A program made the position numbers and the translations under genes. The notes under the pieces were generated by a model. That model was not told the origin of the DNA. It saw only the letters and a list, made by a program, of their open reading frames with translations, and did no database searches. A DNA stretch of 23,089 nt from a virus. Shown in pieces: positions 656-21,977 of this stretch; positions within the stretch are counted from its first letter, which is position 1; every line of letters starts with the position of its first letter. The stretch spans positions 1 through 23,089 of IMG/VR virus record IMGVR_UViG_3300044511_000393; one strand, given 5' to 3'.

Positions 656-742
656 CGGAGAGCTGAGGACTTGCACCCCAAACCATTTCTGGTTCCCACC
701 GATTTCAAGTCGGGTCCGGCCTGCTTATCCGGTTAACTCTCC
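656..742 (-). tRNA. tRNA-Ser(TGA)
   Basis: Class II tRNA. The acceptor GGAGAGT pairs with GCTCTCC, followed by discriminator G as expected for serine. The anticodon loop CTTGAAA gives TGA (reads UCA). The long variable arm pairs AACCA with TGGTT. The T-loop reads TGCAAGT rather than the usual TTC form. CCA is not encoded. It starts 3 nt after the stop of the homing endonuclease gene, so the two are probably co-transcribed. Confidence 0.85.
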
Positions 743-3471: not shown

Positions 3472-3481
3472 AAAATTTTTG

Positions 3482-3555
3482 TCTCCGAGACAGGATTTGA
3501 ACCTGCATAAGCTTGCTCCCAAAGCAAGTGGTCGACCAAATTGACCCACTCGGAG
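3482..3555 (-). tRNA. tRNA-Pro(TGG), second copy
   Basis: The acceptor CTCCGAG/CTCGGAG has C1-G72. The anticodon stem CTTGC/GCAAG holds loop TTTGGGA (TGG). The T-loop TTCAAAT is canonical. It shares the anticodon with its neighbour at 3398 but the stems differ strongly, so it is not a recent duplicate. An inverted-repeat element ends 5 nt before its 5' end. CCA not encoded. Confidence 0.92.
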
Positions 3556-3560
3556 AAATA

Positions 3561-3624
3561 ATCAAACAAAAAGTAGGAAACGGACTAGTCTACCCAAAAG
3601 ATAACCGTTACCAAGCGGTTTGAT
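3561..3624 (-). repeat. tRNA-leader element A
   Basis: A 64-nt segment bounded by a perfect 7-bp inverted repeat (ATCAAAC/GTTTGAT on the minus strand). Its core is AACCG-N10-GTTATCT (3599-3620) and it has a T-run before the right arm. It ends exactly 5 nt (TATTT) before the tRNA at 3555. Elements B and C share this plan. Confidence 0.6.
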
Positions 3625-3631
3625 TTAAACC

Positions 3632-3793
3632 TTACGCGTACATCAACCATTCTTGAGAAATTTGAATGATGTACCACTCTTGAAATGTTTCATCAAAAGT
3701 CCTACACATAATCTTTCCATCATTGGAAACTCCTAAAACTTCCATTTCAGGACCACCATTTACAGAACGAACAATTGAACCTCTTACAAACAT
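3632..3793 (-). CDS. DUF2158 (YodC-like) small protein
   Basis: 53 aa, starting MFVRGSIVRSVNGGPEMEVL. This matches the DUF2158 pattern: G-x-[IV]-V-x-x-x-x-G-G-P-x-M-x-V near the N-terminus, then a conserved Cys (IMCRTF) and a final hydrophobic Leu segment. The family is a small beta-barrel-like domain of unknown function found in bacteria and phages. The open frame extends 11 codons further upstream, but the ATG at 3793 is preferred because a GAGAGG ribosome site lies just before it. Confidence 0.75.
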   Translation of the reverse strand: MFVRGSIVRSVNGGPEMEVLGVSNDGKIMCRTFDETFQEWYIIQISQEWLMYA

Positions 3794-3826
3794 TTCAACC
3801 TCTCTAAAATTAATGTAGATGTGCAA

Positions 3827-4099
3827 ACTTTACAGGAGCCGACTACTTAGAAATTAGTGGGTGATCAACTCCCACCTCATCCTTCTTAACAATTCCAGCC
3901 TTTACCAAACCACTGCCTCGAGAGCGCTCGATATTTACCAGGACCGGTTTTAGTGTTTGCTGGGTTGCTTCATAGCTTACCAGTTTGCTTACGCTGCACG
4001 ATGATCTACGTCACCGACGGTTACCTTACGATAACCTATTTTTAAGTTGAGACATCAAATAACGTATGACGCTCGCCTTAAATGTTCTTTCGTCCCATG
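3827..4099 (-). other. GC-rich structured stretch without a supported gene
   Basis: About 270 nt between tRNA-Asn and the DUF2158 gene. Hairpins on the transcribed strand include GTGGG/CCCAC (3857-3861 with 3871-3875) and GGTTA/TAACC (4019-4023 with 4032-4036). One frame, ending DHPLISK before a TAG at about 3850, is open for about 48 codons and protein-like, but lacks a start codon and is closed upstream by TGA. It may be a non-coding RNA, or a gene relic. Confidence 0.35.
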
Positions 4100-4172
4100 C
4101 TGGCCCGGAGGGGTTCGAACCCCCGACCTAGTGATTAACAATCACCCGCTCTACCGACTGAGCTACAAGCCA
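4100..4172 (-). tRNA. tRNA-Asn(GTT)
   Basis: The acceptor TGGCTTG/CGGGCCA has U1-A72 and discriminator G, as in bacterial tRNA-Asn. The anticodon loop TTGTTAA gives GTT. The D-arm and T-arm (TTCGAAC loop) are canonical. CCA not encoded. Confidence 0.92.
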
Positions 4173-4182
4173 ATAATTTTTG

Positions 4183-4265
4183 CTCCGGAGGTCCGACTCG
4201 AACGGACAGTTGCCTTTCGGCGGAGCATTAACAGTGCCCTGGGGTTACCGTTTTCCTACTCCGGA
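4183..4265 (-). tRNA. Class II tRNA with Asn anticodon (GTT)
   Basis: The acceptor TCCGGAG/CTCCGGA has U1-A72 and G73. The anticodon stem GGGCA/TGCTC holds loop CTGTTAA, anticodon GTT. Unlike any normal tRNA-Asn it has a 15-nt variable arm with a GCC-GAAA-GGC hairpin, and its D-stem is only about 2 bp. The T-arm GTCCG-TTCGAGT-CGGAC is canonical. It may be charged with Asn (anticodon, G73) or behave like a Ser-type tRNA (long arm, G73). CCA not encoded. Confidence 0.75.
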
Positions 4266-4270
4266 AAATC

Positions 4271-4336
4271 GTGAAACAAAAAAGATTTAACGAGTTTTTT
4301 CTTTCCAATAAGATAATCGTTAAAAAGCGGTTTCAC
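4271..4336 (-). repeat. tRNA-leader element B
   Basis: 66 nt bounded by GTGAAAC/GTTTCAC, with core AACCG-N10-ATTATCT (4311-4332), an internal 8-bp pairing (TTTAACGA with TCGTTAAA) and a T-run. It starts 3 nt after the tRNA at 4340 and ends 5 nt before the tRNA at 4265. Same plan as elements A and C. Confidence 0.65.
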
Positions 4337-4339
4337 TTG

Positions 4340-4414
4340 TACCGTCGAGGAGATTTGAACTCCTACATAACTACGTTCTTAGCGTAGCGCCTCTGCCAAT
4401 TGGGCTACGACGGC
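4340..4414 (-). tRNA. Class I tRNA, anticodon AAG (nominally Leu)
   Basis: The acceptor GCCGTCG/CGACGGT has a G1-U72 wobble and A73. The anticodon stem CTACG/CGTAG holds CTAAGAA, anticodon AAG. The variable loop has 5 nt, whereas bacterial tRNA-Leu is class II, and A34 is rare outside Arg. The D-arm and the TTCAAAT T-loop are good. Amino-acid identity is uncertain. Confidence 0.75.
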
Positions 4415-4420
4415 AATTTT

Positions 4421-4567
4421 TTAATCTGAACTGTTGTACCAGTTCCAAAACTCCTCCTGAGTTTCAAACTCAAAATCAGGTTCTCCACCTTCAGGTGTCA
4501 TGTCCACGTAAAATGAATCATCTTCATCATCTATCCAAGCTTCAGCCATCGAATTATAACAAATCAT
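4421..4567 (-). CDS. Small acidic protein, 48 aa
   Basis: Starts MICYNSMAEAWIDDEDDSFY and ends FWNWYNSSD. Very acidic (DDEDD, EGGEPDFEFE, QEEF) with several aromatic residues. No family is recognised. Strong acidity is common in phage proteins that mimic DNA or bind host factors, but nothing here proves that. The ATG follows the stop of the upstream 58-aa gene by 1 nt (TAAAATG), so the two form a translationally linked pair under the promoter at 4776. Confidence 0.6.
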   Translation of the reverse strand: MICYNSMAEAWIDDEDDSFYVDMTPEGGEPDFEFETQEEFWNWYNSSD

Positions 4568-4568
4568 T

Positions 4569-4745
4569 TTAGTAAATCCTCAGTTCAGAGCCGTTAACTT
4601 CAACATTACCAGGCCAGCTTTCTTCCATCCATGAATTGTAATCTTCATCAGTCCTTGATTGAAGAGTCATTACATCTAACATTTGTAAATTAGCTCCTTG
4701 AGCTTGAAGACTAAGAAGCGTGTCTAACAGTTGTTGAGCGTTCAT
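4569..4745 (-). CDS. Small hypothetical protein, 58 aa
   Basis: Starts MNAQQLLDTLLSLQAQGANL and ends VEVNGSELRIY. A Gln/Leu-rich helical N-terminus precedes an acidic C-terminal half. No known family. An in-frame stop lies shortly upstream, so ATG 4745 is the only start; its ribosome site (AAGG) is unusually close. First gene of a two-gene unit behind a consensus promoter. Confidence 0.6.
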   Translation of the reverse strand: MNAQQLLDTLLSLQAQGANLQMLDVMTLQSRTDEDYNSWMEESWPGNVEVNGSELRIY

Positions 4746-4775
4746 CCTTTTTCATCATTTTGATTTGATGGAATA

Positions 4776-4803
4776 ATTATAACACAAAAATCAAAAAGTA
4801 CAA
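4776..4803 (-). promoter_or_regulatory. Sigma70-type promoter, TTGTAC-16-TATAAT
   Basis: TATAAT at 4776-4781 and TTGTAC at 4798-4803 on the minus strand, 16-nt spacer. It lies between tRNA-Gly and the 58-aa gene, giving a leader of about 24 nt. Confidence 0.7.
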
Positions 4804-4811
4804 CTTTATTT

Positions 4812-4888
4812 TGGAGCGGGTAGACGGTCTCGAACCGACAACCTCCGACTTGGAAGGACGGCGCTCTGGCCAATTGAGCTATACCCGC
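4812..4888 (-). tRNA. tRNA-Gly(TCC), CCA encoded
   Basis: The acceptor GCGGGTA/TACCCGC is followed by discriminator U, typical of tRNA-Gly, and an encoded CCA. The anticodon loop CTTCCAA gives TCC. The anticodon stem contains a U30-U40 mismatch. The T-arm has a canonical TTCGAGA loop. Confidence 0.9.
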
Positions 4889-4893
4889 AAAGT

Positions 4894-4965
4894 GTGAAAC
4901 AAAATAAGCGAAAAACGGGGTTTTTCTCAGTAAAAGTAAGATAACCATTTTTCTTTCGGTTTCAC
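4894..4965 (-). repeat. tRNA-leader element C
   Basis: 72 nt bounded by GTGAAAC/GTTTCAC, with core AACCG-N11-GTTATCT (4939-4961) and a T-rich stretch before the right arm. It begins 2 nt after the tRNA at 4968 and ends 5 nt before tRNA-Gly at 4888, like elements A and B. Confidence 0.65.
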
Positions 4966-4967
4966 TG

Positions 4968-5043
4968 TACTCTCGGTCGGATTCGAACCCACACATAAAG
5001 AAGGGCTTAAACCTTCCGCCTCTGCCAATTGGGCTACGAGAGT
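4968..5043 (-). tRNA. Class I tRNA, anticodon TAA (nominally Leu)
   Basis: The acceptor ACTCTCG/CGAGAGT and A73 are clear. The anticodon stem GAAGG/CCTTC holds TTTAAGC, anticodon TAA. The variable loop is short, unlike class II bacterial tRNA-Leu. Its D-arm matches that of the AAG tRNA at 4340, so the two form a related pair. One T-stem pair is a G-G mismatch. CCA not encoded. Confidence 0.78.
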
Positions 5044-5230: not shown

Positions 5231-5235
5231 AAATT

Positions 5236-5384
5236 TAGGTGGAGGTTACGGATCCTCCAGTTGTCTTGTTGTCGGATGTTAACACAACAACTCCTCAACC
5301 GCTTTCTTTCATAGATGGCGATGGAGCTTCCTCCTTATCGAAGGAGTCCTTACGGGTCGCCAGCTCCAGAAAATTCAAAAACAA
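5236..5384 (-). ncRNA. Structured RNA, possible pseudoknotted leader of the tRNA operon
   Basis: About 150 nt directly behind a consensus promoter (5385-5413) and in front of the Tyr-type tRNAs. It holds a perfect 6-bp hairpin (5331-5346), GGAGG/CCTCC (5241-5258), TTGTTG/CAACAA (5266-5290), and two long pairings in pseudoknot order: 5316-5321 with 5357-5362 and 5322-5328 with 5362-5368. One frame ends PSPSMKESG but has no ATG start. No known RNA family is recognised. Confidence 0.5.
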
Positions 5385-5514: not shown

Positions 5515-5643
5515 TGGTTGTGACCTCAGGATTCGAACCTGGTCTTCGCCCTTATGCGTGAGATAACCATCCACAAACGGTTTCTTTCGAAACAAGAGGC
5601 GCAGACGACTTTTTTCGCGTACTAACCAATACATCAAGTCACA
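5515..5643 (-). tRNA. tRNA-like gene with about 50-nt insertion, CCA encoded
   Basis: The ends are tRNA-like: acceptor TGTGACT/GGTCACA, A73, encoded CCA, T-loop TTCGAAT on a CCAGG/CCTGA stem (one mismatch), and a GTA/TAC D-stem. The total of 129 nt is about 50 more than a class I tRNA. The extra part contains a GTTTC-GAAA-GAAAC hairpin and a copy of the AACCG-N10-GTTATCT core of the leader elements (5561-5582). A possible anticodon loop CTCACGC (CAC) is weakly supported. It may be interrupted or inactive. Confidence 0.6.
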
Positions 5644-9974: not shown

Positions 9975-10004
9975 ATTATACTAAGAAAAATTGGAGATGT
10001 ACAC
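9975..10004 (-). promoter_or_regulatory. Sigma70-type promoter of the SspB operon, GTGTAC-18-TATAAT
   Basis: Minus-strand GTGTAC (9999-10004), 18 nt, TATAAT (9975-9980). It lies between the tmRNA terminator and ATG 9968, leaving almost no 5' leader. Confidence 0.6.
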
Positions 10005-10007
10005 ACA

Positions 10008-10033
10008 AAAATGGGGAAGATTAAATCTTCCCC
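10008..10033 (-). terminator. Terminator of the tmRNA gene
   Basis: A near-perfect stem, GGGGAAGATT with AATCTTCCCC (10013-10033), followed on the minus strand by ATTTTTG. It ends the tmRNA transcript just before the SspB-operon promoter. Confidence 0.85.
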
Positions 10034-10036
10034 ATT

Positions 10037-10334
10037 CGGTTCATTCTGTTGCTAGGCTGAACAGCCCCGGTGGATTATGCTGCGAGAGCATAATCTCCAT
10101 AAAATGCGTCATTGCTTGCATTTATAAGTTTTTCGCTGCTTAGGGCAGTCGACTATCCCGTTGTAAACATTCCTACTAATGACCACGTCGAAACTTTGTC
10201 CAGCCCAAATTTATTTTAAGCTATGTGGACTGGGCGGGTTCTGCCCCCGCGTCCGCGACCCCTTTCAGTCAGTCTTTCAAAACTTCCTGTTTACACAACG
10301 ATAAAATCAGTAATGTCTTCTAAAGAAAACATTG
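10037..10334 (-). ncRNA. ssrA: Circularly permuted (two-piece) tmRNA
   Basis: In transcription order the acceptor half comes first: T-stem GCGGG/CCCGC with a 7-nt loop GGCAGAA, then acceptor strand CCAGTCC (10227-10233) and A73 (10226). After a 19-nt linker the coding half begins with GGGCTGGACAAAGTTTCGACG (first base 10206), matching the tmRNA 5' consensus. GGGCTGG pairs with CCAGTCC including G3-U70, the alanine identity pair. GTTTAC (10163-10168) can pair with GTAAAC (10289-10294) as a P2-like helix, and GGG/CCC with CTGC/GCAG can form a pseudoknot upstream of the tag. The tag reads from 10119 to a TAA at 10075. CCA is not encoded. The halves are presumably separated by processing, as in alphaproteobacteria and cyanobacteria. 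Outer ends are approximate. The T-loop is not the usual TTCRANY. Confidence 0.92.
10075..10119 (-). other. tmRNA tag reading frame, (A)ASNDAFYGDYALAA
   Basis: The resume codon GCA at 10117-10119 is preceded by TATAAAT, keeping the U and A at -5 and -4 that matter in E. coli. The frame encodes ASNDAFYGDYALAA and ends at TAA; with the charged alanine the tag is 15 residues. It carries A-x-N-D-x-x-Y (SspB type) and terminal ALAA (ClpX type). The stop codon sits in a perfect 8-bp hairpin (10073-10095), like helix 5 of known tmRNAs. The exact resume codon is inferred. Confidence 0.88.
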
Positions 10335-10340
10335 TCAATT

Positions 10341-17235: not shown

Positions 17236-17877
17236 TTAGAGCCCATTTGGCACGATTTCAGAATGCATCCAGTGCGTATCAGTTTGAACGTGACTAGCAC
17301 GAACAAACTTAGCTACTGACTGAGCAAAATCCTTATAGTGAAACCCCTTTTTCATTCTGACCACGTAACCTTCCTGTGTTGTTGTATCCAGTCGATATTG
17401 AATTTGACGAATTTGGTCTTCGTCAAATTCACCTTGCCAAAGAATATGTACAGACGGAATTTCGAGAAGTGAAAACCATTCTTGTGTTTCACCCCAGCTT
17501 AAACAAAAATTTTTTTCATTCCAAATTGAAAACCCACGAAATGGTATTACCAAGTTCTCATATCTAATCGAGTGTTGAGCAAATAAGTTTTCTCCACAAA
17601 CTCTCCAACCTTCAGGAAGGTCATAACAACGTTCTTGCCACCAACGCTTTACCCAATCACGAGAAGGGTGATTTGCACTGTCAAGTGACCTGGCATGTAG
17701 ATTGCCATTAGTATAAAGTGAAGTGTTCTCACCATCCATTTTTTCTGTTATGATGACATGTTGACCTTCAAAATGTTCAACATTCTTGAGCACTTTGTCA
17801 TCATCAGAACGACCTAGCGACCAGGGAAGATGATAGGTGCGGGGGTATTTGACTTTACTCATTGAAGTAACACTCAT
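17236..17877 (-). CDS. RNA ligase, covalent nucleotidyltransferase family
   Basis: 213 aa. Motif I is TEKMDGEN with K46 as the AMP-accepting lysine. LHARSLD (Ia), VCGENLFAQHSIRY (III), FRGFSIW (IIIa), QEGYVVR (IV) and AKFVRASHV (V) follow in order. The short size and the N-terminal YPRTYHLPWSLG fit the Rnl family (RNA_ligase) that accompanies SAK-type RNA repair genes. It joins RNA ends, most likely cut tRNAs. The ATG at 17862 is an alternative start. Own promoter at 17893; followed by the Sm-like gene. Confidence 0.9.
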   Translation of the reverse strand: MSVTSMSKVKYPRTYHLPWSLGRSDDDKVLKNVEHFEGQHVIITEKMDGENTSLYTNGNLHARSLDSANHPSRDWVKRWWQERCYDLPEGWRVCGENLFAQHSIRYENLVIPFRGFSIWNEKNFCLSWGETQEWFSLLEIPSVHILWQGEFDEDQIRQIQYRLDTTTQEGYVVRMKKGFHYKDFAQSVAKFVRASHVQTDTHWMHSEIVPNGL

Positions 17878-20922: not shown

Positions 20923-21942
20923 TTAATTGTGTTCAATATCGTAAAAGAGTCTAAGCCAGTCGACTAACCATTCGTAAAACTGACGTTTAAGATTATCGTC
21001 CTTAAATGGTAAGTTAGTAATTTGCTGCGCGTTCGTAACACGTTCATTTAGCTCCTCAAATTCTGCCTTAACCCTGTCGAATGGAATTTTTCCATTTTTG
21101 ATATCTAGAAGATGCTTGGCGCTTTCACGTGGGAAATTAATTTTACCTACCGTTAAAATTTCTAGCGCTTCTTCAGTGATGCGGATGGCGTGTGAAAGCG
21201 CCTTCCAGTCAACTTCATCACCCTGTGATTTACGAACTCGCTCTCCATATTTATCACGAAGCCCCTTCATTGCGTTTAAAAAATGCCCAACTTTTGTCGT
21301 AAGAGCATAAGTGCGATTATTAACAGACAGCGCTGGCATCTTATCGTAACCGGTTTTTGTGTCTTTTATTTCTGTCATGAAGATAAATTCTGACTGCAAC
21401 TTTGTCAGCTTTGATTCAATTGACCCAAGCGTGTTAGAAACATCCAGTAATCCCTCTGTAAGTTCATGTTCAATGAGCTCAATAATTGCTTCAACCGAGT
21501 TTAACCTGCTGGCGCGAGCACCATAAAGCTCTGCTTGGCTCATAGCGTACTGAATCATCTTTGTGATATCATCCGTTAAGAAGTCATTAATTAACTCATG
21601 ACAGAATTCAACAATTCGAGCATCATAACAATTAACAAACTGTTTGTTTTCGTTATTGCTAAACGCTATAACAAAAGCAGATTCAATTGCGTATGTTTGC
21701 CCTTCAAAGAAGTGTTCCGCAAAAGTTTTGAGCGGAACAAATTCATATTCCGACTCATCGGCGGGCATGATGTCATCGTCGCTCACACCTTCAGGCCGCT
21801 TCTTAATGATAGCTGAACGTCGTTCAAGAAGAACTTGATTGAGGTCAGGGATGTAAATTACCTTAAAGTCACGGTCTGATGTTGGCGTGGAAGTACCAAA
21901 CAGGTGGGAGCCACTAACAATTTCTGCAAGTAAATTTTTCAT
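20923..21942 (-). CDS. RlaP-type nucleotidyltransferase (RNA-repair Pol beta family)
   Basis: 339 aa from ATG 21942; a TTG five codons earlier is less likely. GSHLFGTSTPTSDRDFKVIY (11-30) is the nucleotidyltransferase motif G-S-x10-D-x-D with D23 and D25 as metal ligands. The remaining helical part fits the large single-domain COG3541/RlaP group, named for RNA-repair operons and sometimes found in phages. It may add nucleotides to, or tag, damaged RNA ends; the true substrate is unknown. Followed by the FmdB-like gene; own promoter at 21978. Confidence 0.82.
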   Translation of the reverse strand: MKNLLAEIVSGSHLFGTSTPTSDRDFKVIYIPDLNQVLLERRSAIIKKRPEGVSDDDIMPADESEYEFVPLKTFAEHFFEGQTYAIESAFVIAFSNNENKQFVNCYDARIVEFCHELINDFLTDDITKMIQYAMSQAELYGARASRLNSVEAIIELIEHELTEGLLDVSNTLGSIESKLTKLQSEFIFMTEIKDTKTGYDKMPALSVNNRTYALTTKVGHFLNAMKGLRDKYGERVRKSQGDEVDWKALSHAIRITEEALEILTVGKINFPRESAKHLLDIKNGKIPFDRVKAEFEELNERVTNAQQITNLPFKDDNLKRQFYEWLVDWLRLFYDIEHN

Positions 21943-21977
21943 TTGAATTCTATCCAAGTAATAATTCTCTTGAACAA

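Follow-up and report, generated by a model that had tools for sequence, protein, structure and literature searches.

Y RNAs are the partners of the RNA-quality-control protein Ro60, whose site on these RNAs is a 7-bp helix with a single bulged C and a bulge on the opposite strand (PMC4726728). In bacterial Y RNAs the basal stem holds the Ro60 ortholog Rsr, while a tRNA-like domain holds PNPase (PMC8394870), and the structure of YrlA (6CU1) showed that this tRNA-like module is a circular permutation of a tRNA in which the Ro stem is open (PMC11472068). Both Y RNAs and phage Ro60 proteins are already known: jumbo phages encode Ro60 (PMC7824862), Ro60 (TROVE) genes are annotated in actinophages, and Y RNAs have been proposed for Listeria phage CKA15 in a paper that also cites a bioinformatic identification of Y RNAs in mycobacteriophages (PMC12282133).

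The window analyzed here is a 23,089-nt stretch of viral DNA (IMG/VR record IMGVR_UViG_3300044511_000393), the tRNA region of which contains repeats that most probably encode short Y RNAs. A first-pass annotation of this DNA could name no known element of the kind; bacterial Y RNA is such a kind, and our analysis suggests that the elements are a partly new form of this known RNA family, one that is common and multi-copy. The elements resemble YrlA (RF02553) in that the 5' and 3' ends pair in both, in that the YrlA consensus, P1 (6 bp)-5 nt-P2 (7 bp)-3 nt...P2'-8 nt-P1', is also their layout, and in that both are linked to Ro60/Rsr genes; moreover, the same phages have long relatives with a tRNA-like module, in several of which the T-arm precedes the D-arm, as it does in YrlA. 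They differ from YrlA in that the window copies are 64-76 nt long without a tRNA-like module, occur in multiple copies and lie within tRNA arrays. With metazoan Y RNAs they have in common a lower, Ro60-binding type of stem with a 7-bp helix, an unpaired C on the 5' strand and excess nucleotides on the opposite strand (PMC4726728). They differ from these in lacking polymerase III features and in having an unrelated upper domain. At the level of sequence, the likeness to vertebrate Y RNAs lies in the motifs CCGAAG and CUUG. The Rfam YrlA model did not match the plain window copies (E1-E3 and E5 below) at its gathering cut-off of 69 bits, the best score in the window being 23.5 bits, on a pair of tRNAs; nor did any Rfam family match the elements at cut-off in ten loci tested. 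A self-cleaving ribozyme (hammerhead, twister or similar) was considered separately and rejected, as there was no Rfam match.

Short elements in the tRNA region and their fold

The three repeats reported earlier, here E1, E2 and E3, were all found in the sequence as described, with perfect 7-bp terminal arms, an AACCG-N10/11-[GA]TTATCT core, a T-run preceding the right arm and a 5-nt spacer (TATTT, GATTT and ACTTT, respectively) before the next tRNA. They are read on the minus strand, as are the tRNAs. The distance of 5 nt to the tRNA is exact for all three, but it describes only half of their placement, given that E2 and E3 also follow an upstream tRNA after 2 and 1 nt. With an additional short copy, E5, the window holds four plain copies and one rearranged copy (E4, at 5515-5643 on the minus strand). 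In the list, E values are those of R1, a model of six sequences picked without regard to Ro genes, and are rough; the first and last blocks of each RNA form P1, and the blocks before UUAUCU and after the dots form P2.

4967..5043 (-): tRNA-Leu(taa), upstream of E3 (ARAGORN)
4894..4965 (-): E3, candidate short Y RNA, 72 nt, 1 nt after tRNA-Leu and 5 nt before tRNA-Gly; GUGAAAC-CGAAA-GAAAAAUGG-UUAUCU...CCGUUUUUC-GCUUAUUUU-GUUUCAC
4812..4888 (-): tRNA-Gly, downstream of E3 (ARAGORN)
4339..4414 (-): tRNA-Leu(aag), upstream of E2 (ARAGORN)
4271..4336 (-): E2, candidate short Y RNA, 66 nt, 2 nt after tRNA-Leu and 5 nt before tRNA-Asn; GUGAAAC-CGCUU-UUUAACGA-UUAUCU...UCGUUAAA-UCUUUUUU-GUUUCAC
4182..4265 (-): tRNA-Asn, downstream of E2 (ARAGORN)
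3561..3624 (-): E1, candidate short Y RNA, 64 nt, 5 nt before tRNA-Pro; AUCAAAC-CGCUU-GGUAACGG-UUAUCU...CCGUUUCC-UACUUUUU-GUUUGAU, where UACUUUUU is the 3' strand; R1 E 2.3e-12 (a training member)
3481..3555 (-): tRNA-Pro, downstream of E1 (ARAGORN)
656..742 (-): tRNA-Ser(UGA), directly upstream of E5, read by eye and missed by ARAGORN; acceptor GGAGAG/CUCUCC, anticodon loop CUUGAAA
577..652 (-): E5, candidate short Y RNA, 76 nt, 3 nt after tRNA-Ser(UGA); R1 E 1.6e-4 (sequence absent from the training set)

An origin of the elements as chance repeats is ruled out by pattern counts: GAAACCG-N6-16-TTATCTT has two matches in the window and none in 100 shuffles, and AACCG-N6-16-TTATCT has five against 0.13 expected.

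Several other features of the window deserve mention in their own right. Both tRNA-Leu genes were delimited by ARAGORN at 76-77 nt without a long variable arm, which bacterial tRNA-Leu usually has, and their identity is uncertain. A promoter-like repeat, approximately TTGTACaTTTTg-TTTTTGTGTTAtAAT, was seen by eye at 5414-5383, 4804-4770 and 1999-1966 (-), preceding genes or gaps of the tRNA region, and may be a phage-specific promoter. Two long, non-coding and structured-looking stretches between tRNAs, at 5235-5375 (-) and 3830-4091 (-), contain tRNA-like pieces and have no Rfam match at cut-off. A tmRNA gene of the permuted, two-piece alphaproteobacterial type (9984-10335 (-), tag ASNDAFYGDYALAA; ARAGORN and Rfam) suggests an alphaproteobacterial host. 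Finally, the genes at 17236-17877 (-) and 20923-21957 (-) are relatives of the PHROG "RNA ligase" and "nucleotidyltransferase" families, in keeping with a theme of RNA repair or tRNA maturation.

The fold common to the elements comprises the 7-bp end helix P1, a 5' strand C-G-NNN, a second helix P2 of 7-9 bp followed by UUAUC and, on the 3' side, an 8-nt strand ...CUU(UU)G. The predicted folds of E1 and E2 (minimum-energy) and of E3 (centroid) have these same two helices around an internal loop of 5 x 8-9 nt. As modeled, the basal stem has the parts of the described Ro60 site (PMC4726728): a helix of about 7 bp, a single unpaired C, conserved directly after P1, and an opposite-strand bulge, the internal loop being about 3 nt longer on its 3' than on its 5' side.

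A scan of viral contigs led back to this cluster in IMGVR 3300023208_000003, a contig of 197 kb from the same phage, and also turned up an independent copy in another large phage (L010/G003), between tRNA-Trp and tRNA-Phe. With a looser scan, further copies came up in a locus with 21 tRNAs (L141/G007) and, beside tRNA-Ala, in L072/G006, a contig of 368 kb; the first loose patterns yielded mostly chance matches, and those contigs were reused as a background set for the TROVE domain. Past the Y element of the L141 contig (IMGVR 3300038463_000227), on its downstream side, lies a tRNA-like gene with an apparent interruption of about 145 nt in its D-loop, within a cluster that contains many tRNAs of odd length. 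DNA similarity searches with the tRNA cluster against known phages matched mainly the tRNAs, and those with the Ro region gave no matches.

Altogether 75 distinct copies were collected from related phages, 58 of them short (56-80 nt) and, like the short window copies, without the tRNA-like module, and 17 long (94-135 nt). A T-loop-like motif is present in 16 of the 17 long copies and in 2 of the 58 short ones. The two forms have a common stem and occur side by side, for example in L322, where about eleven Y RNA-like genes of both lengths, intermingled, form an array that ends directly at a Ro60 gene.

In an alignment of six sequences, 93% of the cells are paired, with 19 two-sided changes spread over 9 of the 15 pairs, a result equaled by none of 500 shuffles; the search pattern for these sequences had included the inner AAAC/GUUU pairs, while the outer P1 pairs and the whole of P2 lay outside it, except that for L010 two outer P1 pairs were also within the pattern. 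Sliding the partner by one column lowered the pairing to 40-49%. The 75-sequence alignment, which like the other larger ones was fitted to the structure, is 92.7% paired, with 435 two-sided cells and two-sided changes at all 15 pairs, which none of 500 shuffles reached; given this fitting, the sliding and shuffling controls weigh more than the pairing percentage. The earlier suggestion of a dedicated RNA is thus borne out by further copies and many compensatory changes in related phages.

Linkage to Ro60 genes

The G006 contig also holds copies with a tRNA-like module as their apical part. This led us to suspect a bacterial Y RNA and hence to predict Ro60 in such phages, and a check found the TROVE domain (PF05731) in both G003 and G006, as compared with 1 of 46 control contigs (G049) and 345 of 50,697 phage records overall (0.7%). 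In G006, R1 matches a site that precedes the TROVE gene by about 0.55 kb; in Streptomyces phage CeilingFan, it matches between a tRNA and an annotated Ro-like gene, about 400 nt upstream of the latter. Agrobacterium phage Atu_ph07, chosen since the TROVE-positive records included two Agrobacterium phages, has two R1 matches, and its own TROVE gene was confirmed afterwards.

A second model, R2, built from 11 sequences, found matches in the held-out Ro phages Phosso (described below), Phredrick, Dandelion, Farewell, Faust and BearBQ. The matches in the last five all lie upstream of Ro, at a distance of about 1 kb or less. Several of the R2 scores are weak by themselves (E 0.002-0.5, values as rough as those of R1), and it is the position that counts as the evidence. 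Among records without a Pfam TROVE match, the best E values were 0.02, in a contig preselected by pattern, and 0.095, in the T4-like phage Killian. There was no model match in XacN1, PA5oct, Listeria phage P100 or Vibrio phage pir03, all without Pfam TROVE, the last two having been chosen because papers suggested them.

All viral contigs were also scanned with the RNA consensus only, giving 138 loci, of which R2 accepts 36. An HMM of phage Ro proteins found TROVE in 15 of these 36 and in none of the other 102 (Fisher p 1.3e-10, or 7.7e-9 once four near-identical Streptomyces phages are collapsed). In all 15 loci the RNA and the Ro gene are on the same strand, mostly less than 1 kb apart. Among 17 further model-positive records, five had TROVE elsewhere in the contig, as against 1 of 20 controls. 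The correspondence is incomplete in that four TROVE phages had no or a very weak model match. Caulobacter phage CcrColossus, intended as a negative control, has a TROVE gene (107635-108432 (-)) and no R2 match, Myxococcus phage Mx1 has TROVE and no model match, and Pumpernickel has only a weak match (E 0.83), flush between two tRNAs. The RNA family is genetically associated with the Ro60/Rsr (TROVE) gene.

In the phage of the window itself, searches with Pfam and with an HMM of 13 phage Ro proteins found no TROVE gene in 200.5 kb (the 197-kb contig and 3.5 kb from the window) of a genome that is incomplete, since the window runs 3.5 kb past the long contig and there is no overlap between the ends. 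Other long contigs with Y RNAs and without TROVE are G055 (251 kb), G059 (162 kb) and G052 (127 kb). One variant of the short Y RNA reading would accommodate these cases by having the short Y RNAs of a phage without Ro60 act in trans on a putative host Rsr, as decoys or rewiring partners on its RNA-binding surface that block host RNA decay or repair. The absence of an exonuclease-tethering module from the short form is consistent with such a role, but the TROVE-less contigs may all be incomplete and many relatives with the same short form have a Ro of their own, so that we hold this variant as a tentative possibility, on the doubtful side.

tRNA-bodied elements

The rearranged copy E4 has a different architecture, as read from the sequence:

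5515..5643 (-): E4, putative tRNA body in which a circularly permuted Ro-binding stem replaces the anticodon arm; acceptor UGUGACU/GGUCACA (7 bp), discriminator A, encoded CCA, D-arm and T-arm
5561..5608 (-): proposed permuted Ro stem of E4, in order P2' (5608-5601, UCGUCUGC), 3' strand GCCUCUU, P1' GUUUC, tetraloop GAAA, P1 GAAAC, CGUUU, P2 (5574-5567, GUGGAUGG) and UUAUCU

Among the contigs examined, the window shares this design with L310 (three sites), L358 (three), L141, L352, L345, L369 and G006, and several of the sites have GNRA caps. Downstream of the site there is a T-loop in 10 of the 11 capped sites with paired P2, as against 21% of sites without a capped hairpin. Compared with YrlA in 6CU1, E4-type genes would represent the reverse permutation, with a small loop closing the Ro stem and with open tRNA ends that in several genes include CCA.

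Alternatively, E4 could be not a permuted Y RNA but an ordinary tRNA that has either a small intron or an extended anticodon stem. Its minimum-energy fold is indeed a GUCUGCGCC/GGGCGAAGAC helix, at -38.0 as compared with -28.5 kcal/mol for the permuted-Y fold, and in intron mode ARAGORN calls four of eight E4 homologues as intron-bearing tRNAs. Against this, ARAGORN leaves E4 and its two closest homologues uncalled as tRNAs, and of the 32 sites with a capped hairpin, 11 have a paired P2, as against 0-2 in displaced controls. The homologues moreover keep CCG, UUAUC, the 3' pyrimidine strand, the capped P1 and P2, with two-sided changes in P2; in the closest ones (G006 and L358) the flanking GCGAAAA and CAUAARGGCGAAGA are kept while P2 has changed on both sides. 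We therefore consider an ordinary tRNA unlikely, and regard the E4 type as probably a tRNA-bodied class with a permuted Ro stem, a grading that goes no further because the most stable fold of E4 by itself is another one, with an extended, anticodon-like stem. As a second class of Y RNA it is apparently undescribed: a literature search, with key bacterial Y RNA papers outside its reach, found no description of a tRNA-bodied permuted form, of the short form itself or of arrays of short Y RNAs in tRNA operons.

Expression and possible function

A very probable joint explanation, and the best we can offer, is that the elements are short Y RNA genes co-transcribed with the tRNAs between which they lie, released by tRNA maturation and loaded onto Ro60. 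Each RNA would be built of two helices that enclose an asymmetric, conserved internal loop for binding of the ring-shaped Ro60/Rsr, with a small variable hairpin capping the stem where YrlA has its tRNA-like module. A Y RNA of about 65-80 nt with a 3' tail of about 5 nt would be set free by two tRNA maturation cuts, one at the 3' end of the upstream tRNA and the other made by RNase P on the downstream tRNA, and could then load onto a Ro60 of the phage itself or of its host. By analogy with bacterial Y RNAs, we infer that the loaded RNA might gate or tether Ro60 and thereby affect RNA surveillance, turnover or repair during infection; given that the short form lacks an effector domain, one would expect it not to tether PNPase but to occupy or gate Ro.

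The placement of the elements might also be taken to mean that they act mainly in cis, as insulating or nuclease-recruiting spacers for the processing of the tRNA operon, their likeness to Y RNAs being incidental; the first-pass annotation had similarly spoken of a leader or processing signal. That E1-E3 all lie 5 nt before the tRNA that follows agrees with this, as does flush placement between tRNAs in several phages, such as Phosso, whose two R2 copies each lie between two tRNAs (gaps of 5/3 and 8/6 nt) with the Ro gene elsewhere in the genome. However, both copies in Atu_ph07 are stand-alone genes followed by terminator-like hairpins, at least one with a promoter-like TTGACA upstream, and in L319, L326 and L241 the copies adjoin Ro genes with no tRNA found nearby. 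Together with the statistical linkage to TROVE, this makes a primarily cis-acting role quite improbable. That the elements are decayed tRNA genes, as a tRNA-like length and the 7-bp closing stem had earlier suggested, can hardly be right, for the short copies lack D-, anticodon- and T-arms, are called by neither ARAGORN nor Rfam, covary strongly in both helices, have their conserved positions in the Ro-binding stem of Y RNAs, and possess a stem that is also found far from tRNAs and a linkage to Ro that contradicts decay.

Returning to the short Y RNA reading, a broader form of it posits an expanded Ro60 system in large phages, in which the tRNA operon is at the same time a Y RNA operon with minimal and tRNA-bodied Y RNAs as its two undescribed products; for this we see the chances as evenly balanced. 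If it were true, the tRNA-bodied Y RNAs of the E4 class would use the anticodon arm as a Ro-binding stem, and their tRNA ends with CCA might be matured, and perhaps charged, like those of tRNAs, docking Ro60 onto tRNA-handling enzymes.

In practical terms, the elements supply a signature by which the Ro-binding stem can be searched for and which Rfam missed here, and they make specific tests feasible in cultured phages, namely Atu_ph07, Phosso and phages of Streptomyces and Mycobacterium. Should the tRNA-bodied form be expressed, it would represent a novel type of tRNA mimic and the mirror permutation of YrlA. More generally, the Y RNAs of phages frequently come in several copies, most of which lack the presumed nuclease-tethering module, and the Y RNA/Ro system is physically tied to tRNA genes, which bears both on why phages carry Ro60 and on the function of bacterial Y RNAs.
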